Below, piece after piece: positions 36,702 through 46,733 of a stretch of DNA of 64,000 bases. Position numbers and translations under genes: made by a program. Below the pieces are notes generated by a model. The model ran no database searches. It was not told the origin of the DNA and saw only the letters and a list, made by a program, of their open reading frames with translations. How positions within the stretch are numbered: position 1 is the stretch's first letter; every line of letters begins with the position of its first letter. Source of the DNA: Streptomyces sp. NBC_00582 (lineage in GTDB: Bacteria; Actinomycetota; Actinomycetes; Streptomycetales; Streptomycetaceae); contig NZ_CP107772.1 in NCBI RefSeq assembly GCF_036345155.1, forward strand, positions 8,494,001 through 8,558,000, given 5' to 3'.

Positions 36702-37247
36702 ATGAGCCAGGCGCAGGACCACGAGCAGGCCGGGGCCAACGGGCCCGCCGTGCCGCAGACCCGCACCGCCCGCCACCGCCGGATCGTGGACATCCTCAAC
36801 CGGCAACCCGTGCGCTCGCAGAGCCAGTTGGCGAAACTGCTCGCCGACGACGGGCTGAGCGTGACGCAGGCGACGCTGTCGCGGGACCTGGACGAGCTGA
36901 ACGCGGTGAAGATCCGCAACACCGACGGCGACCTGATCTACGCGGTGCCCAGTGAGGGGGGTTTCCGGACCCCTCGGGCGCCGTTGGGGGAGTCGGCGAA
37001 GGAGGAGCGGATGCGGCGGCTGTCCCAGGAGCTGCTGATCTCCGCGGAGGCCTCCGCGAATCTCGTGGTCCTTCGCACCCCGCCGGGTGCGGCCCAGTTC
37101 CTCGCCTCGGCGATCGACCAGGCCGAGCTGCACGACATCCTGGGGACGATCGCCGGCGACGACACGCTGCTGCTCATCAGCCGGGAGCCGACGGGTGGGC
37201 AGGCGCTCGCGGATCACCTTCTGCGGTTGGCTCAGAACGGCCACTGA
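36702..37247 (+). CDS. argR: Arginine repressor
   Basis: 181 residues. N-terminal winged-helix (about 20-85) with [20 protein letters not shown] and the recognition segment [19 protein letters not shown]-terminal hexamerisation and arginine-binding domain ([33 protein letters not shown]). It binds ARG boxes with arginine as co-repressor. ATG at 36702, 7 nt after the argD stop. ARG-box-like sites are present before argC and before argH. Confidence 0.96.
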
Positions 37248-37355: not shown

Positions 37356-38159
37356 TCAGCCCAGACGCCGGGCCAGGCCTCCCGTGCAGCGCACCTCGTC
37401 GCCCGCCGTGATCAGCAGCGCCTCCACGTCCGGCAGGGACTCCAGCCACGCCAGCGCCTCCCGCGAACCCATCGCGAAAGCCGCCGTGGCCCAGCAGTCC
37501 GCCCAGGTCAGGCGGGGGGCGACCACCGTCACGGCGACCAGATCGGTCACCGCCGATCGGGCCGTCCGCGGGTCGACGATGTGCGCGCCCCGCTCCGCCG
37601 TGCCCGACGTCGCCACCGCCAGCTCGTCCGCTCCCGCCGCCGACACGACCGCCGCGAGTCCGCCCGGCCGCAGGGGGTCGGACACCCCCACCCGCCACGG
37701 CCGCTCCGGCCCGGGCACGCCCAGCAACTGCACGTCCCCGCCGCCGTTGACGCTGACCCCGCTCACCCCCGCCACCCGGGAGATCAGCCGCGCCGCCCGC
37801 TCGGTGGCCCAGCCCTTGACGATCCCGGTCGGGTCGAGCCGGCCCTCGTAGCGCATGCTGAACCAGCCGTCGCTCACCCGCTCCGCCTCGGCGCCGAGGT
37901 CCAGCACCTCGGCCACCTCGGGATCGCACTCCCCGACGCTCAGCTCACCGCGCGCCATCCGGGAGACCTGGCTGTCCTCGCGGTACGTGCTGAACACCTC
38001 GTTCACCCGGTGCAGGGAGGCCACCGCCTCGTCCAGCGCCGCACGCACCGCCCGGGGTTCCCCGCCGCGGACGTCGAAGGAGAAGACCGTCCCCATGACC
38101 TCCTCCGCGTGACGTACCGCGGCGGGAGCTGCTGCCGACTCGGCCACGGTGTCAGTCAC
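37356..38159 (-). CDS. apbE: FAD:protein FMN transferase (ApbE family)
   Basis: 267 residues; attaches FMN through a phosphoester to a Thr/Ser of the S-G-A-T motif in partner proteins. It has the N-terminal EEVMGTVFSFDVRG, the VNEVFSTYREDSQVSR region, LDPTGIVKGWATERAARL, VNGGGDVQLLG and the metal-site AVATSGTAERGAHIVDPRT. No signal peptide or lipobox is visible; GTG at 38159 overlaps the partner gene by 8 nt. The partner directly upstream in the operon contains three target motifs, fixing the functional link. Confidence 0.93.
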   Translation of the reverse strand: MTDTVAESAAAPAAVRHAEEVMGTVFSFDVRGGEPRAVRAALDEAVASLHRVNEVFSTYREDSQVSRMARGELSVGECDPEVAEVLDLGAEAERVSDGWFSMRYEGRLDPTGIVKGWATERAARLISRVAGVSGVSVNGGGDVQLLGVPGPERPWRVGVSDPLRPGGLAAVVSAAGADELAVATSGTAERGAHIVDPRTARSAVTDLVAVTVVAPRLTWADCWATAAFAMGSREALAWLESLPDVEALLITAGDEVRCTGGLARRLG

Positions 38160-39285
38160 CGGCCTGGTCCAGCGCCGACTGCAGGGACTGCTTGTAGCCC
38201 TCGCTGGTGTAGGTGGCCCCGGAGACGGTGTCGATGTCGGCGCTGGACTTCGCGACCGCCGCCTGGTTGAGCTTGGGGACGGAGAGTTCGGTCTTCTGGG
38301 TGCTGGTGCCGCCGGAGGGGGCCTGGACCGCCTCCGCCTTGGTGATCTTGCCGCCCGCGACCGTGATCCGCACCTGTACCGGGCCGTACTGCGTCTGCGC
38401 CACCTTGCCGGTGAAGGTGCCGGAGGCCTGAGCCGCACCCGAACCGGAGCCGGAGCCGGAGCCCGAACCCGATCCCGATCCCGAGCCGGAGGCCGACGAC
38501 GAACCCGCGCTCGCCTTCGCCGCCTTGTCCAGCGCCGACTGCAGCGACTTCTTGTAGCCCTCACTGGTGTAGGTCGCGCCCGACACCGTGTCGATGTCCG
38601 CGCTGCCGGCCGCCACGGCCGCCTGGTTCAGCTTCGGGACGGACAGTTCCGTCTTCTGCGTGCTGGTCCCGCCGGACGGCGCCTTGACGGCGTCCGCCTT
38701 GGTGATCTTGCCGTCGGCGAGCGTGATCCGCACCTGGACGTCGCCGTACTGCGTCGTCGTCACGTCCCCGGTGAAGGTCCCGGAGGCCTGCACGGCGCCC
38801 GAGCCGGAGCCCGAGCCGGAGCCCTGGGAGGAGCCCGCGCTCGCGTTCGCCTTGTCGATCGCCGACTGGAGGGACTTCTTGTAGCCCTCGCTGGTGTAGG
38901 TCGCGCCCGAGACGGTGTCGATCTGCACGCTCTGCTTGGCGACGACGTCCGCGTTCAGCTTGGGGATCGCCAGCTCGGACTTCTGGGTGCTGGTGCCGCC
39001 CGACGGCGCCTTGACGGCCTCCGCCTTGGTGATCTTGTTGTTGACGACCGTGATGCGGACCTGGACGTCGCCGTACTGCGTCTTGACCGCGTCACCGGTC
39101 ATCGTGCCCGACACGGGCGCCCCGGCCCCGCCCTGGGCCGCTTCCTGCGCCGCCGTTCCGCCGGCGCCCGCCGCCTGGGTGGACGTCGGGTCCGTCGCCG
39201 GCTTCAGCGACAGCAGCAGCACGATCCCGGACACGGTGGCGGCACTGGCCAGCACGACCCGCCGAAGAGGGTGGCTCTTCCTCAT
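38152..39285 (-). CDS. Secreted protein with three FMN-binding (flavinylation) domains
   Basis: 377 residues. A basic N-terminus and membrane-anchor helix (about 8-27) are followed by three near-identical FMN_bind domains of about 85 residues, each ending in DTVSGATYTSEGYK: the SGAT threonines lie near 129, 238 and about 357. Domains are joined by Ser/Gly linkers, the second with a run of about eight Gly-Ser pairs. ApbE should load three covalent FMNs, making a flexible extracytoplasmic electron wire. ATG at 39285 follows GGAAGAGA-like sequence. It sits between apbE and a ferric-reductase-like flavocytochrome, the likely electron donor. Confidence 0.92.
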   Translation of the reverse strand: MRKSHPLRRVVLASAATVSGIVLLLSLKPATDPTSTQAAGAGGTAAQEAAQGGAGAPVSGTMTGDAVKTQYGDVQVRITVVNNKITKAEAVKAPSGGTSTQKSELAIPKLNADVVAKQSVQIDTVSGATYTSEGYKKSLQSAIDKANASAGSSQGSGSGSGSGAVQASGTFTGDVTTTQYGDVQVRITLADGKITKADAVKAPSGGTSTQKTELSVPKLNQAAVAAGSADIDTVSGATYTSEGYKKSLQSALDKAAKASAGSSSASGSGSGSGSGSGSGSGSGAAQASGTFTGKVAQTQYGPVQVRITVAGGKITKAEAVQAPSGGTSTQKTELSVPKLNQAAVAKSSADIDTVSGATYTSEGYKQSLQSALDQAGD

Positions 39286-39344
39286 CTCTTCCTGAGCTCC
39301 TGATTCCTGTTGAAGGCCACGTCACGGGCCGGGAGTGGTGCCGG

Positions 39345-40727
39345 TCACATCTCGAACGACTCGTGATGGATACGGCGGGCCGGAACGCCGGCGCCGCGCA
39401 GTGCCTCGTACACGCCCTGGGCGAAGCCGTTCGGTCCGCACATGAACACGTCGTGGTCGTCGATGTCGGGGATCTTGCGCTGGAGGGACTCCGCCGAGAT
39501 GTCGGGTCGCTCTCCGTCCGGGCTGTTGACCGCGTACATCAGCCGCGCCCCGCGCTCGTCGGCGATCTTCGCCAGCTCGTCCCACAGGGCCAGGTCCTGG
39601 GTGCTGTTGGCGCGGTAGAGGAGCGTGATGTCACCGGGCGCGCCCGGCAGCGTCTCGAACAGCGTCCGCATCGGGGTGATGCCCACACCGCCGGCGACCA
39701 GCAGCACCTTGCCGCGGCTGCGCCGGGAGGCGGTCATCGCGCCGTACGGGCCCTCGGCCCACACCTTCGTGCCCGGCCGCAGCTCGCGCAGCGCCGCGGT
39801 GTGGTCGCCGATCGCCTTGACCGTGATCCGCAGCAGCTCGGGACGCGGGTTCGCCGACAGCGAGTACGGGTGGGAGCTGAACCGCATTCCCGGGGCGAGG
39901 AACCGCCAGCGGAAGAACTGGCCCGCCTCCGCGCCGATCCGGTGCAGCTTGCGGCCGCCGATCAGGACGGACACGATGCCGGGCGTCTCCTCGATGACCG
40001 CCTCGACGTACATGCGGTGACGCAGGTTCAGCCGGATCGGGGTGAGGATGCGGTACCAGACGACCAGCGCGGTGACCGAGCCGTACAGCCCGTACCAGAC
40101 CGTCTTGGCGGCGGGCTCGATCGCGAACTCGTTGCCGGTGGTGATCTGGTGCCAGAAGGTCAGGAACACCGCCGCGTACGTCATCAGATGGATGTGGTAC
40201 CAGGTGTCGTACGGCATCTTCCGGCGGACCGGACCGATCGACACCAGGCCGATGACCAGCAGCAGACCGGTGCCGATCGCCGCCTTGCCCATGTCGGGGA
40301 GCTGGTTGATGGAGTCGATCGTCTGCTGGACGATGTCACCGAGCGACTTGCCGGCCTGCAGCGCGTACCCCCACATGATGAGGAACACGTGCGCGAAGGT
40401 GAGGCACAGGGTGTACCGGCCGCTCATCGCGTGCCAGCGCGCCACCCGGTCCGAGCCGACCCGGCGCTCCAGCGCGGGCACCCGCGCCATCTGCAGGACG
40501 ACCAGGGCCATCAGATAGCCGGCGAGCAGACCGGTGATCCGGCCCGCGTTGAGGATCTTGCTGTTGTCGTCCGCGATGTTCGGCGTGTTCTCCCACCACA
40601 GCCACAGCACGCCCGCCGCGCCCGCCCATACGGCGAGCAGCAGCGGAACGGCAGGGGATCGGCGCGGGCGGATCCGGCGCATCGTCTGGCGGCGGGCGGC
40701 ACGTCCGCCTGCGATTGTGGTGGTCAC
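39345..40727 (-). CDS. Ferric-reductase-like flavocytochrome oxidoreductase (copy A)
   Basis: 460 residues. Six predicted helices in the first 230 residues form the ferric-reductase-like haem domain, with candidate haem ligands in ARWHAMSGRYTLCLTFAHVF and WYHIHLMTYAAVFLTFWHQ. The cytoplasmic half is a ferredoxin-NADP-reductase unit: HPYSLSANPRPELLRITVKA for FAD, VLLVAGGVGITPMR for NAD(P), and a C-terminal FMCGPNGFAQGVYEAL ... HHESFEM. It would pass electrons from NAD(P)H across the membrane to the adjacent triple FMN protein. ATG at 40727 follows GAGGAACC. Confidence 0.92.
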   Translation of the reverse strand: MTTTIAGGRAARRQTMRRIRPRRSPAVPLLLAVWAGAAGVLWLWWENTPNIADDNSKILNAGRITGLLAGYLMALVVLQMARVPALERRVGSDRVARWHAMSGRYTLCLTFAHVFLIMWGYALQAGKSLGDIVQQTIDSINQLPDMGKAAIGTGLLLVIGLVSIGPVRRKMPYDTWYHIHLMTYAAVFLTFWHQITTGNEFAIEPAAKTVWYGLYGSVTALVVWYRILTPIRLNLRHRMYVEAVIEETPGIVSVLIGGRKLHRIGAEAGQFFRWRFLAPGMRFSSHPYSLSANPRPELLRITVKAIGDHTAALRELRPGTKVWAEGPYGAMTASRRSRGKVLLVAGGVGITPMRTLFETLPGAPGDITLLYRANSTQDLALWDELAKIADERGARLMYAVNSPDGERPDISAESLQRKIPDIDDHDVFMCGPNGFAQGVYEALRGAGVPARRIHHESFEM

Positions 40728-40787
40728 GGTTCCTCCGTGGGGACTTGACCCGGGCGCCCACAGATACGTGCCTCGACCGCTTTGTGT

Positions 40788-41237
40788 TCAGACCCCCGCC
40801 AAGTCCAGTGCGGACTGGAGTGACTGCCGGTAACCGTCGCTCGTGTACGTCGCTCCCGAGACGGTGTCGATGTCCGCGCTCTGCGCCTGGAGGGCCTCGC
40901 TGCGCAGTTGGGGGATGGCGTAGGAGTTGATCTGCTGGTCGCGCGGATTCTCCTGGGGGTAGGTCACCGCCGTCACGTCCGTGATCTTCCCGTCCTGGAC
41001 GGTGATCCGGACCTGGACGGGCCCCCAGCGGGTCTGCACCGAGTCCCCGGTGACGGTCGTGCCGCCCTTGCCCGAGCCGGCGCTCGCACTGCTCGTGGAC
41101 GAGGGGGCCGGGGACGCCACGGCCACCACGGGCGTTGTGTGCGGCTTGAGCGCCAGCAGCATCACCACCCCGGAGACGGTGGCGGCGCTCGCCAGCATGA
41201 TCCGGCGCAGGGGACGGTTCTTCTTCAGCGGATGCAC
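40788..41237 (-). CDS. Secreted single-domain FMN-binding protein
   Basis: 149 residues. Basic start and anchor helix (about 9-27: RRIMLASAATVSGVVMLLAL), a short Ser-rich linker, and one FMN_bind domain with the flavinylation motif DTVSGATYTSDGY near 130. The N-terminal 25 residues are nearly the same as those of the three-domain protein, showing that the two genes are duplicates and that the longer one gained domains by internal duplication. It should be flavinylated by the same ApbE. Located between the two reductase genes. Confidence 0.92.
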   Translation of the reverse strand: MHPLKKNRPLRRIMLASAATVSGVVMLLALKPHTTPVVAVASPAPSSTSSASAGSGKGGTTVTGDSVQTRWGPVQVRITVQDGKITDVTAVTYPQENPRDQQINSYAIPQLRSEALQAQSADIDTVSGATYTSDGYRQSLQSALDLAGV

Positions 41238-41256
41238 TGACAGGACCTCACAACTC

Positions 41257-42609
41257 TCACAGCTCGAACGACTCGTGGTGGATCCGCCGGTCCGGCACCC
41301 CGGCGGCGCGCAGGGCCTCGTACACGTCCCGGGCGAAGCCGTGCGGGCCGCAGAGGTAGACGTCGTGCCCCGCGAGGTCGGGAACGGCCGCGCGCAGCGC
41401 GTCCGCGCCCAGGCTCGGGCGCTGCCCCGCGGGCCCGTTGAGCGCGTACAGCACCCTCGACCCGCGCCAGCGCGCCACCGCCTCCAGCTCCGCGCCCAGC
41501 GCGAGGTCCTCGGCCGACCGCGCCCGGTAGAGCACCGTCACCTCGCCGGGCAGGGTCTCGAACAGCGCCCGCAGCGGGGTGATGCCGACCCCGGCCCCGA
41601 TCAGCAGCGACTTCGGCGCGGTGCGCCGGTCGGCGGTCATCGCGCCGTACGGCCCCTCGGCCCACACCCGTGTGCCGGGCCGCAGCAGCGCCACCCGAGC
41701 GCTGTGCCCGCCGAGCGCCTTGACCGTGATCCGCATCAGCTCCGGCCGGGGCGGCGCCGACAGCGAGTACGGCGTCGAGGTCCACGCCAGCCCCGCACCG
41801 AGGAACCGCCACCGGAAGAACTGCCCGGCCACCGCGCCGAGTTCGTCCAGCCGCCGCCCCCGTACGACGACGGAGTACACCTCGGGAGCCTCCCGCTGCA
41901 CGGACTCCACCCGCAGCCGGTGCCGCAGGTTCAGCCGTACGGGGACCAGGACCCGGAACCACAGCACCAGCCCCGCCGCCCCGAGGTACAGCGCGTACCA
42001 GGCGGCCGTGGCCACCGGCCTGCCGTTGAGGTCGTTGCCGAGGGCGAGCTGGTGGCCGAAGGCGAGGAAGACGGCCGCGTAGGTGAGGAGGTGGACGTAG
42101 TACCAGAACTCGTACCCGGTGCGGCGCCGGACGGCGCGCGCGGAGGTGACACCGACCGCGAGGAGGATGACCGTGCCGGCGGTCGCCTTCAGCATCTCGG
42201 GGTAGTCGAGGACCACGGTCAGCGTCTCGTCGACGAGCGACCGGCGGTCCTGGGCCGCGTACCCGGCGAGGATCAGCACGATGTGCGCCACCAGCAGACA
42301 GATCGTGTACCGGCCGGCCATCGCGTGCCAGCGCGCCACCCGGTCGGAGCCGATCCGCCGCTCCAGCAGCGGCACCCGCGCCATCAGCGCGACGACCACC
42401 GCACAGGCGTACCCGCACAGCAGCCCGGCGATCCGCCCGGCCCCGGTCAGCCAGCCCGCCGCCCCGACGACCGAACCGGTGCCGGACCACCACAGGGCGA
42501 GCACGGCCGCCGCCCCCGCCCAGAGCACGGCGAGCAGCGGACCCGCGGGGGAGCGCCGGGCGGCCGACGCCACCGGGGGTGCCGCCCGCCGCTCGTACAC
42601 GGTGGTCAT
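41257..42609 (-). CDS. Ferric-reductase-like flavocytochrome oxidoreductase (copy B)
   Basis: 450 residues, collinear with copy A: RVARWHAMAGRYTICLLVAHIV, FWYYVHLLTYAAVFLAFGHQ, PYSLSAPPRPELMRITVKAL, SLLIGAGVGITPLRALFETLPG, YLCGPHGFARDVYEAL and the terminal HHESFEL. ATG at 42609 has GAAAGGA 8-9 nt upstream, which fixes the start; the open frame beyond it runs into the divergent promoter. It lies 19 nt before the one-domain FMN protein in the same operon. It is the promoter-proximal gene facing the two-component system. Confidence 0.92.
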   Translation of the reverse strand: MTTVYERRAAPPVASAARRSPAGPLLAVLWAGAAAVLALWWSGTGSVVGAAGWLTGAGRIAGLLCGYACAVVVALMARVPLLERRIGSDRVARWHAMAGRYTICLLVAHIVLILAGYAAQDRRSLVDETLTVVLDYPEMLKATAGTVILLAVGVTSARAVRRRTGYEFWYYVHLLTYAAVFLAFGHQLALGNDLNGRPVATAAWYALYLGAAGLVLWFRVLVPVRLNLRHRLRVESVQREAPEVYSVVVRGRRLDELGAVAGQFFRWRFLGAGLAWTSTPYSLSAPPRPELMRITVKALGGHSARVALLRPGTRVWAEGPYGAMTADRRTAPKSLLIGAGVGITPLRALFETLPGEVTVLYRARSAEDLALGAELEAVARWRGSRVLYALNGPAGQRPSLGADALRAAVPDLAGHDVYLCGPHGFARDVYEALRAAGVPDRRIHHESFEL

Positions 42610-42658
42610 GAGGACGTCCTTTCGCCGTTCGGTGGAGCCCACTGTGCGCGGCGAACCT

Positions 42659-42712
42659 CTCAGACCGCTCTGAGCGGCCGCCCCGCACGGCGGACTCAGA
42701 GGAAACTCAGAG
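42659..42712. promoter_or_regulatory. Candidate response-regulator binding sites
   Basis: ACTCAGAG occurs twice (42694-42701 and 42705-42712) at an 11-bp period, the spacing typical of OmpR/PhoB-type tandem sites. CTCAGA-CCGC-TCTGAG (42659-42674) forms an additional inverted pair of the same core. The sites lie between the reductase operon and the divergent regulator gene. Confidence 0.6.
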
Positions 42713-42761: not shown

Positions 42762-43502
42762 ATGAACACCACACGCTCCGGCCGCCCCGCCCTCACCCGC
42801 CCCGACGGCACCCCGCTGCGCGTCCTCGTCGTCGACGACGACCCCGATCTCGCCGAGGTGCTCTCCGGCGCGCTGCGCTACGAGGGCTGGCTGGTCCGCT
42901 CCGCGGGCGACGGCGCCTCGGCCCTCGCGGCGGCCCGCGAGCTGCTGCCCGACGCGGTCGTCCTGGACGTGATGCTCCCCGACACCGACGGCTTCGCCGT
43001 GCTGCGCTCCCTGCACACCGTGAAACCGGACGTCTGCGTCCTCTTCCTCACCGCGCGGGACGCCGTGGAGGACCGGATCGCCGGCATCACGGCGGGCGGC
43101 GACGACTACGTCACCAAGCCCTTCAGCCTGGAGGAGGTCGTCGCCCGGCTGCGCGGACTGCTGCGCCGCGCCGGCATGGCCCGCCAGCAGGAGGAGGGCC
43201 CGCGGCTGATCGTGGGCGACCTCGTCATGGACGAGGAGGCCCGTGAGGTGACCCGCGCGGGCGAGCTGATCGAGCTCTCCCCGACCGAGTTCGAACTCCT
43301 CCGCTTCCTGATGCGCAACCCGCGCCGGGTGCTCAGCAAGACCCAGATCCTCGACCGGGTGTGGTCCTACGACTTCGGAGGCCGCGCCCATGTCGTGGAG
43401 CTGTACATCTCCTACCTGCGCAAGAAGGTCGACGCCGGCCGGGATCCCATGATCCACACCGTGCGCGGGGCCGGATACGTGCTGAAGCCGGCGGTGTCAT
43501 GA
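42762..43502 (+). CDS. OmpR-family response regulator
   Basis: 246 residues. Receiver domain with VDDDPDLAEVL, phosphoacceptor Asp69 in VVLDVMLPDTDG and the FLTARDAVED / YVTKPFSLEE segments, then a winged-helix DNA-binding domain (about 150-245) with LSPTEFELLRFLMRNPRRVLS and YISYLRKKVD. The ATG at 42762 lacks a strong ribosome site (GGAAGCAGCC). It overlaps the kinase gene (ATGA). Candidate direct-repeat sites 50 nt upstream suggest autoregulation and control of the divergent FMN/reductase operon. Confidence 0.94.
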   Translation: MNTTRSGRPALTRPDGTPLRVLVVDDDPDLAEVLSGALRYEGWLVRSAGDGASALAAARELLPDAVVLDVMLPDTDGFAVLRSLHTVKPDVCVLFLTARDAVEDRIAGITAGGDDYVTKPFSLEEVVARLRGLLRRAGMARQQEEGPRLIVGDLVMDEEAREVTRAGELIELSPTEFELLRFLMRNPRRVLSKTQILDRVWSYDFGGRAHVVELYISYLRKKVDAGRDPMIHTVRGAGYVLKPAVS

Positions 43503-45044: not shown

Positions 45045-46733
45045 TCAACCCAGCGGATTGAGCAACTCCGCCTTCCCCTCGAACGCGTACAACAACAGGT
45101 CCGTCATCTGGAAAACACCCGCGTCGCGCCGCGCGTCCACCGGACTCAGGAACGGCCGCCAGAACGGATCCCGCACGATCGAGTACCGGCTCCCCTCCAT
45201 CGCCCGATGGAACGTCTCGGCCACGATCCGCCCTCCGACCCCGGTCAGCCGTCCACCCCCGTTCACCTCGGCCTCCCGCAGGACGTAGAACCACAGCGGG
45301 CAGTCGGCGACCAGCCGCTTGCGCAGCGCCTCACTCAGCTGCGCCCCGTCCCGGTTCTCGAAGTCGGACGCGCTCAGCGGCTTGACCCCCACGCCTTGGG
45401 CCATGAGGTGCTTGGCCATCTGCTGCCCCGAGGCGAGCCGCAGCATGGTGCTCCGGGTGAGGTTGCGGAAGGCGAGGTTGCGCTCGATGTCGTCGGGAGT
45501 GGTCCCGCGTCCGCCGAAGGAGCCGAGCGGCAGCTCGGCCAGGGGATTGACCAGGAGCGTGTCGACGCGCTTGGCGATGTTGGCCTGCGCGTCGGTCACC
45601 CCGAGATCGCCGCGCCCGGCCTCCCGGAAGTCGAACAGCCTGCGCAGATCGGCGATCCAGTTGCTGGGCAGCCGCTCGAAGGCGCCGGCCTCCGGGTCGT
45701 CCGGGCTGTCCGGCGGCGGCGAGAGGATGCCGCTGGTGCCGGTGAACTGGAAGAGCAGCGCCAGGGTGCCCCGGCCGTTGTCGAAGACGCGGTTCCAGTT
45801 GTAGGCGCCGCGCACCATGCTGTGGCCGAGCCGGTACGCGGCCACCGAGAACTCGATCGGCATGGTCGGGAGGTCGTGTTCGCCCGGCGAGGGGTCGACC
45901 ACCTTGCGGCCCTTGGTGAAGACCTCCTTGACGATCGTCTCGTCGACGATCCTGGGCAGGAAGTCGGTGCGCAGCATCCACTGGTAGTGCTTGACGACGG
46001 CCTCGCGGGCCGACTCGAACAGGACCGCGCTGGAGACGCCCTTGTCGGCGAGCTCGGTGGCCAGCCGGTTGTGGAACCGGATGAAGGCGCAGTGGATCTG
46101 GGCGACCGCGAGGTTCTCGTCGTTGCGCGGGTCGGGGATGAGCGGCCGCCGGCGCTCGGACTTCAGCGAGCCGACGCCCACCCGGGGCAGGTCGAAGCCG
46201 GCGAGCGGCTGCCCGGTGATGTCGGTGGCGCCGGGGATGCCCTGGGTGGTGCCCGTCCTGAGACGGATGCCGTCGGTGTCGTAGAAGCGGCCGTCGAAAC
46301 GGTGGTCCGGACCGAGGCCGTACAGCGAGTCGAGGTCGAGCGCGGGCGAGCGGCCCTGGAGGAGTTGGCGGACGGTGATGTCGTCCTCGAGCTGGGCCGC
46401 CGTGGCGTCCAGGGTGAGGTCGTGGTCCACGAACTGGCCCAGGTAGGTGAAGCCGGCGGGCACCCTGGGGTTGGCCGAGTCGGGCTGGGTCCGCGTGCTG
46501 TCGGTCATCGCCTGGGCGAGTTCCGTGCGGGCGGCCCGGTCGAGCTGCCGTTCCGGCTTGGCCTGGGGGCCCAGCCGGGAGAACCGGAACCTGCGGAGGG
46601 CCTCGACGGTGGAGGCGGTGAGCGGCTCGGCGGGCCGCTCACCGCGGGAGTCGGCGAGGACGCCCTCGCCGACGACGTAGTACGAGGACCTGACGTGACG
46701 TTTGCTCTGTGGTTCGCGTGCGGGTCGGAACAT
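45045..46733 (-). CDS. Animal-type haem peroxidase family protein
   Basis: 562 residues, no signal peptide. The distal segment FTYLGQFVDHDLTLDATA (His104 in the peroxidase motif) and the proximal-side segment AAYRLGHSMVRGAYNWN (near 300) are those of bacterial members of the animal haem peroxidase superfamily. QIHCAFIRFHNRLATEL and RHVRSSYYVVG are also typical. The C-terminus VFQMTDLLLYAFEG is conserved. The 163-nt region upstream is AT-rich and holds an inverted repeat. Its proximity to the electron-export block suggests oxidative or extracellular redox chemistry, but no direct link is proven. Confidence 0.88.
   Translation of the reverse strand: MFRPAREPQSKRHVRSSYYVVGEGVLADSRGERPAEPLTASTVEALRRFRFSRLGPQAKPERQLDRAARTELAQAMTDSTRTQPDSANPRVPAGFTYLGQFVDHDLTLDATAAQLEDDITVRQLLQGRSPALDLDSLYGLGPDHRFDGRFYDTDGIRLRTGTTQGIPGATDITGQPLAGFDLPRVGVGSLKSERRRPLIPDPRNDENLAVAQIHCAFIRFHNRLATELADKGVSSAVLFESAREAVVKHYQWMLRTDFLPRIVDETIVKEVFTKGRKVVDPSPGEHDLPTMPIEFSVAAYRLGHSMVRGAYNWNRVFDNGRGTLALLFQFTGTSGILSPPPDSPDDPEAGAFERLPSNWIADLRRLFDFREAGRGDLGVTDAQANIAKRVDTLLVNPLAELPLGSFGGRGTTPDDIERNLAFRNLTRSTMLRLASGQQMAKHLMAQGVGVKPLSASDFENRDGAQLSEALRKRLVADCPLWFYVLREAEVNGGGRLTGVGGRIVAETFHRAMEGSRYSIVRDPFWRPFLSPVDARRDAGVFQMTDLLLYAFEGKAELLNPLG

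Follow-up and report, generated by a model that had tools for sequence, protein, structure and literature searches.

A predicted paired flavinylation operon for outward electron transfer in Streptomyces, with a divergent two-component system

How could a Streptomyces cell pass electrons from the cytosol to the space outside its membrane, and why would it keep two sets of the machinery side by side? The question is raised by five adjacent genes of Streptomyces sp. NBC_00582 (genome 11.1 Mb), which encode two flavocytochromes (red1 and red2), two predicted carriers of covalent flavin mononucleotide (FMN1 and FMN3) and the transferase ApbE. The genes lie in a stretch of 64,000 nucleotides (NZ_CP107772.1:8494001-8558000), here called the window, and had been singled out in an initial annotation made from the sequence alone. 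Here we present a computational analysis of this locus and of its relatives in the genus and in the class. The block probably encodes a paired MsrQ-like flavinylation system that would move electrons out of the cell and be inducible by a divergent two-component system.

Open reading frames and Pfam domains agree that the block is a single minus-strand operon in the order red2-FMN1-red1-FMN3-apbE, with the ATG of red2 (42609) and the stop codon of apbE (37356) as its ends. The intergenic spacing is 19 bases between red2 and FMN1, 60 between FMN1 and red1 and 59 between red1 and FMN3, while apbE, read from the GTG at 38159, overlaps the 3′ end of FMN3 by 8 bases. A regulator gene and a kinase gene are located on the plus strand, divergent from the five-gene operon (Table 1). 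Chance as the origin of the block is excluded because of the Pfam E-values and the conservation across genus and class.

Both flavocytochromes are ferric-reductase-like, as proposed: each carries Ferric_reduct (PF01794) and a C-terminal NAD_binding_1 domain (PF00175), and they are clustered with ApbE and FMN_bind proteins. Four histidines of red1 (H99, H113, H180 and H193) are invariant across 49 aligned reductases and spaced as two pairs in the manner of haem ligands, and the nucleotide-domain glycines and a Cys-Gly are invariant too. By sequence, the predicted haem ligands are present in both paralogues. A family binding flavin adenine dinucleotide (FAD), FAD_binding_8, was found for red1; no FAD-domain family passed for red2 in the Pfam scan, despite 57% identity between the two proteins in alignment. 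The AlphaFold (AF2) model of red1 (pLDDT, the predicted local distance difference score, 89; pTM, the predicted template-modelling score, 0.83) has as its best fold match the NADPH oxidase (NOX) of Streptococcus pneumoniae, SpNOX, with a template-modelling (TM) score of 0.72 by query and 0.82 by target at 18% identity, and the sequence search agrees with this match. Red1 shares with the NOX family both the predicted fold and the bis-histidine pairs; the N-terminal half of its model, helical as judged from the model itself, and the four invariant histidines would be compatible with the six transmembrane helices and two haem sites described for MsrQ-like systems. The invariant histidines, the nucleotide motifs and the SpNOX fold support, as a prediction, the electron path proposed at the outset, in which reduced nicotinamide nucleotide, NAD(P)H, feeds FAD, haem and finally covalent FMN; the path would include two haems. 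At loci L103-L108, reductases of about 46% identity stand with neither a carrier nor apbE in the stretch taken.

The carriers had been described as two secreted proteins with SGAT flavinylation motifs. The two carriers stand, but the number of sites had to be corrected, the long carrier being a triple-domain protein. FMN3 has three DTVSGAT sites, with Thr129, Thr238 and Thr358 as the predicted flavinylated residues, and FMN1 has one SGAT site, at Thr130 (codon 40848-40850); three domains in one carrier and one in the other thus give four predicted flavins. Joined by Ser/Gly-rich linkers, the FMN3 domains agree with each other at 64 to 74 positions in alignments of 88-91 residues and with the FMN1 domain at 46-50 of 87. 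One of them matches the crystal chain of SaFMN3-D2 (PDB 8P2A) with an E-value of 1.7e-35, and FMN3 as a whole has the makeup of an SaFMN3-type protein, with three FMN_bind domains, SGAT motifs and an N-terminal anchor. On inspection of the sequences, the N-terminus of the carriers is a short charged segment followed by a hydrophobic helix. Under the positive-inside rule this arrangement would place the FMN domains outside.

From these parts we propose the following mechanism. Red1 and red2, with their NADPH-oxidase fold, would draw electrons from NAD(P)H in the cytosol and pass them by way of FAD and two b haems to the outside of the membrane, and each would feed its own anchored carrier of covalent FMN, red2 the short-reach FMN1 and red1 the longer-reach FMN3. 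One shared ApbE would attach all four FMNs. The divergent two-component system would sense an envelope signal and switch both the operon and itself through two facing TCAGAG boxes. The most likely role would be an inducible supply of reducing power for the cell-wall space, with ferric iron, other metals or quinone-type compounds as acceptors and O2 as a slow side acceptor.

The initial annotation called for a comparison of copy number and co-occurrence across Streptomyces, which was made in 61 genomes, the present one included. A full red1 homologue (at least 64% identity) was found in 22 of them, plus one contig-end fragment, and FMN_bind in 28. Red2 stands beside red1 in 8 of the 22, so the pair is present in 8 of the 61 sampled Streptomyces. 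Simpler cassettes fall into types. Type A (14 loci) consists of red1, carrier and apbE with no regulator genes in the stretch taken; type B (6 loci) has a regulator and a kinase divergent from red-FMN1-apbE and lies away from the arginine genes. In a type C cassette of the same genome (L062), a regulator and a kinase are divergent from a reductase that is accompanied by a leaderless ApbE and an FMN carrier with two domains. A third apbE of this genome (L071:3651-6500, within G000:C1:3455000-3468000) neighbours the genes of a NuoF-like protein (PF01512, PF10589) and of a short protein with Ferric_reduct, a cluster resembling the NuoF variant of MsrQ-like clusters. The arginine setting pointed out earlier is real, argR being near the operon, but it is not a clue to function: argR is in the stretch taken for 20 of the 22 red1 loci, the window included, a few kilobases off in some (the two exceptions are L061 and a contig fragment, L052), and the pair is missing from 14 of the 22. 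The arginine neighborhood is thus a positional heritage.

Beyond this sample, we took the best 80 of 567 named red2 loci, some of them from the same strains as the numbered genomes. Both reductases are present in 67, 3 stop at a contig end, 8 are split and 2 lack red1. At the split loci neither red1 nor apbE is within reach of red2-FMN1, and all eight of these genomes keep red1 (63-94% identity) with FMN3 and apbE elsewhere, adjacent to argR in seven and at a contig end in the eighth. The simplest reading is that red2-FMN1 relies on the ApbE encoded with red1, one enzyme serving both halves. In the two genomes lacking red1 and FMN3, S. griseofuscus DSM 40191 (L205) and S. misionensis (L225), red2-FMN1-apbE lies beside argR, and these strains offer a simpler arrangement for genetics. 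Close named relatives of apbE (best 120) and of red2 (best 80) are nearly all from Streptomyces. The label unusual, given to the pair at first, is thus weakened: the pair is not specific to this strain, and it belongs to a class of systems described as broadly conserved in Actinobacteria. FMN_bind occurs in 111 of 296 genomes of the bacterial class, and at 37 hand-picked FMN_bind loci outside the genus (27 families) a reductase ends at most 700 bases upstream of the carrier, on the same strand, in every case; apbE is in the stretch taken for 29 of the 37, and some of the others stop at a contig end.

The suggestion that the operon has its own two-component system gains support from a conserved operator between the regulator and red2. 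Here lie two facing TCAGAG direct repeats at an 11-base pitch, the pattern expected of OmpR/PhoB-type regulators; the second box, TCAGAGCGGTCTGAGAG, starts 39 bases from the first, TCAGAGGAAACTCAGAG, which is the only exact TCAGAG-N5-TCAGAG in the genome. The region upstream of red2 was scored in 78 of the 80 named loci, and its best site has no mismatch in 59, one in 14, two in 4 and five in 1. At no more than two mismatches the box is found in 77 of these 78 regions; among 365 stretches taken from these loci as controls, 3 have it, two of them perfectly. Allowing one mismatch, it is present at 7/7 paired and 6/6 type B loci and was not found at 13 of the 14 type A loci, which have no regulator genes, or at any of the five type C loci, including L062. 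Nine copies of the exact 17-mer TCAGAGGAAACTCAGAG are present across the 61 genomes, all of them directly upstream of a type B or paired reductase, where chance would give about 0.006 occurrences assuming 72% guanine plus cytosine. From this conservation we predict that the regulator binds the boxes. In the kinase, the extracytoplasmic loop (alignment columns about 64-82) has nearly invariant D74, D76, D80, T81 and R82 and is a possible metal site; the structure model of the kinase is weak (pTM 0.44), with the sensor loop at low confidence. With the regulator and its precisely defined predicted operator in hand, one could search for the inducing signal and, from it, for the acceptor.

Table 1. 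Features of the locus and related cassettes of the same genome (window positions unless a locus or contig handle is given)
Feature	Position	Strand	Basis
argR, reading towards apbE	36702-37247	+	ORF (open reading frame)/Pfam
apbE, FAD:protein FMN transferase, no export signal	37356..38159	-	PF02424 2.3e-44; alternative start ATG 38096
FMN3, N-terminally anchored carrier, three FMN_bind domains	38152..39285	-	PF04205 x3, 1.5e-30; 8P2A match
red1, ferric-reductase/NADPH-oxidase-like flavocytochrome	39345..40727	-	Ferric_reduct 1.5e-18, NAD_binding_1, FAD_binding_8
FMN1, anchored carrier, one FMN_bind domain	40788..41237	-	PF04205 5.8e-13
red2, flavocytochrome paralogous to red1	41257..42609	-	Ferric_reduct 1.9e-18, NAD_binding_1
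Second box, facing the other way, TCAGAGCGGTCTGAGAG, one mismatch	42657..42673	-	Pattern search
Predicted response-regulator box TCAGAGGAAACTCAGAG	42696..42712	+	TCAGAG-N5-TCAGAG, conservation
OmpR-family response regulator	42762..43502	+	PF00072, PF00486
Sensor histidine kinase, extracytoplasmic sensor region with Asp/His-rich loop	43499..44962	+	HAMP, HisKA, HATPase_c
Animal-haem-peroxidase family gene, converging on kinase gene	45045-46733		PF03098
Type C cassette L062	L062:8075-13126; G000:C1:3014149-3016775 and divergent genes
Second regulator-kinase pair with array	G000:C1:701785-704157 (L247:3286-5658)		Regulator 51% identical to that of the window

Several observations weigh against an inducible paired export system, or against parts of it. 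No linked acceptor gene was found at the locus, and 14 of the 22 red1 loci lack red2 and, in the stretch taken, regulator genes. The box is also less exclusive in its loose form: the pattern has 54 exact sites in the 61 genomes vs 5 for a reversed control, 17 of them in the intergenic region between regulator and red2 and 37 elsewhere, and the four outside sites that were inspected (G003, G048, G057, G030) are not beside genes homologous to those of the window. With one mismatch allowed, the genome of NBC_00582 has 13 sites, 2 at the operon and 11 elsewhere (reversed control, 2). Among them, a place with two overlapping sites (L248) is beside none of the window's genes, and a degenerate four-repeat TCAGAG array (three overlapping sites, 11-base pitch) lies just upstream of another regulator gene. 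Since the loose box is commoner than its reversed control and such an array precedes a related regulator, control is perhaps not exclusive to the operon; related regulators may share this type of box, and the term dedicated holds only for the exact 17-mer. The carriers give further grounds for caution. In the paired genome G014 STAT replaces SGAT in both domains of the long carrier, one domain in G011 has SSAT, and the long carrier of the paired genome G020 is disrupted in a draft assembly, so flavinylation of the long carrier may be dispensable in some strains. The long carriers of L056 and L051 have STAT or SSAT variants inside otherwise intact domains. Such natural variants are test cases for the need of the motif glycine.

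The most direct conflict concerns ApbE, which has no export signal, whereas the carriers that it would flavinylate are predicted to be outside; flavinylation as usually drawn does not fit. We examined 37 of 39 ApbE frames, those beginning near the profile start, and none has a 15-residue stretch of mean hydropathy of at least 1.6 in the 60 residues before the core, the highest value being 1.31. By the same test such a stretch does precede the domain in 52 of 55 FMN-bearing frames, and the three exceptions are all domains of L146. In a set of 29 ApbEs, the 25 that were framed also look leaderless by eye, a hydrophobic leader is by eye likewise missing from the genome's third ApbE, and the best 120 database relatives of apbE are 246-269 residues long. 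Either ApbE is cytosolic and loaded carriers are exported, or ApbE has an unrecognized export route, or the topology is misleading. We advance only tentatively, as a serious option that falls short of an even chance, that throughout the class a leaderless cytosolic ApbE loads MsrQ-like carriers, which are then exported with their FMN by a relaxed twin-arginine translocation (Tat) or other route. Tat as a simple answer is not claimed, the twin arginine not being conserved: the carriers of the window have RR, and many loci have KR, KK, TR, RK or other residues. According to a review (PMC12052999), most ApbEs seem to be secreted and cytosolic ones exist, for example in Klebsiella. Cytosolic loading, if true, would be a biogenesis opposite to that of the extracytosolic ApbE of Listeria and Gram-negatives, and the locus thus exposes a testable conflict over where actinobacterial ApbE works.

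Other functions have to be weighed against the supply of reducing power to the wall. The operon could encode an assimilatory iron reductase, reducing ferric iron or ferric siderophores at the surface for uptake, as the Ferric_reduct domain, the VIT1 iron transporter gene reported for some MsrQ-like clusters (PMC8238504) and the conserved Asp-rich sensor loop might suggest; we consider this somewhat unlikely, as no iron transporter is among the eight window proteins scanned, the relatives having been searched for the window's genes only. An oxidase of the NOX kind, reducing O2 outside to H2O2 or superoxide for signalling, defence or the feeding of a peroxidase, is less probable still. NOX enzymes, to our knowledge, need no FMN carrier, although SpNOX is the best fold match of red1. 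A PF03098 haem-peroxidase gene does lie beside the kinase gene, with a homologue beside the red1 half of the split genome L238; however, such a gene was found in only 4 of the best 80 named red2 loci, some of the 80 being cut by contig ends, and inspection by eye shows no signal peptide on the window's peroxidase. The reaction of reduced SaFMN3 with O2, at 1.2 per second (PMC10339131), is in our judgement slow for a dedicated oxidase.

As to the origin of the pair, duplication, as first proposed, is borne out by phylogeny. Trees of 37 and 52 reductases place red1 and red2 as sister clades (support 98/95 and 100/100) with type B outside, and forcing type B and red2 into one clade costs 38.6 log units (p of the approximately unbiased, AU, test 0.0005). 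The pair is an old duplication. Because the red1 clade mixes paired and unpaired members, the nearest red1 to that of the window (L042) being without red2, several losses of the red2 half are probable, and the half-operon may also have been transferred. That a regulator-linked and an arg-linked cassette merged with no duplication, our initial reading, is very improbable and was rejected by the tree and the AU test: the regulator, box and short carrier do resemble stand-alone regulator-linked cassettes, and apbE is nearer to close arg-linked (76-92% identity) than to regulator-linked cassettes (51-57%), but this closeness does not extend to the four deepest A-type cassettes (57-59% in apbE), and red2 is sister to red1 at 100/100.

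Among known systems, the closest in kind are the MsrQ-like flavinylation systems of Meheust et al. (2021, eLife; PMC8238504), with 1,797 clusters, described as broadly conserved in Actinobacteria. They are defined there by a PF01794 protein clustered with ApbE and/or FMN_bind, a C-terminal PF00175 being common and not obligatory; six transmembrane helices and two haem sites are described, as is a flavinylation gene that carries a signal peptide or a lipidation site, and 157 clusters combine a multi-flavinylated protein with other FMN proteins. Our locus likewise has a PF01794 cytochrome, FMN_bind carrier and apbE in one cluster. Unlike the systems described, it has two paralogous cytochromes and two carriers on one ApbE, a divergent two-component system with a conserved operator and an ApbE without an export signal. 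Red1 is like SpNOX (PDB 8QQ7, 8QT6) in predicted fold, bis-histidine spacing and FAD/NADPH domain. We know of no FMN carrier or ApbE partner of SpNOX.

In S. azureus, SaFMN3 binds FMN covalently in three domains and has a midpoint of -184 mV; its Thr-FMN ester was seen in the crystal (8P2A), and the paper calls its natural donor unknown (Tong et al. 2023; PMC10339131). FMN3 resembles it in its three FMN_bind domains and N-terminal membrane anchor. Whereas SaFMN3 was studied alone, here the gene of a probable donor lies next to that of the carrier, and there is a second carrier. As a flavocytochrome is located just upstream of the carrier in all 37 loci outside the genus, such a protein is the probable electron donor of SaFMN3, a conclusion drawn from the loci of other genomes. 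The locus thus names a likely donor for a carrier that was structurally studied but donor-less. Flavin-based extracellular electron transfer in Listeria (FmnB/PplA; PMC9973259) also relies on ApbE-type flavinylation of carriers outside the membrane, with an extracytosolic FmnB and FAD exported by an energy-coupling factor (ECF) system. Here, by contrast, ApbE is leaderless and the donor would be a flavocytochrome. Our literature search, with most subscription journals outside its coverage, found no title that deals with the pair, with the two-component system beside it or with the operator. The general kind of system is already published; new are the paired form, the predicted operator, the link to an upstream flavocytochrome as probable donor and the ApbE paradox.

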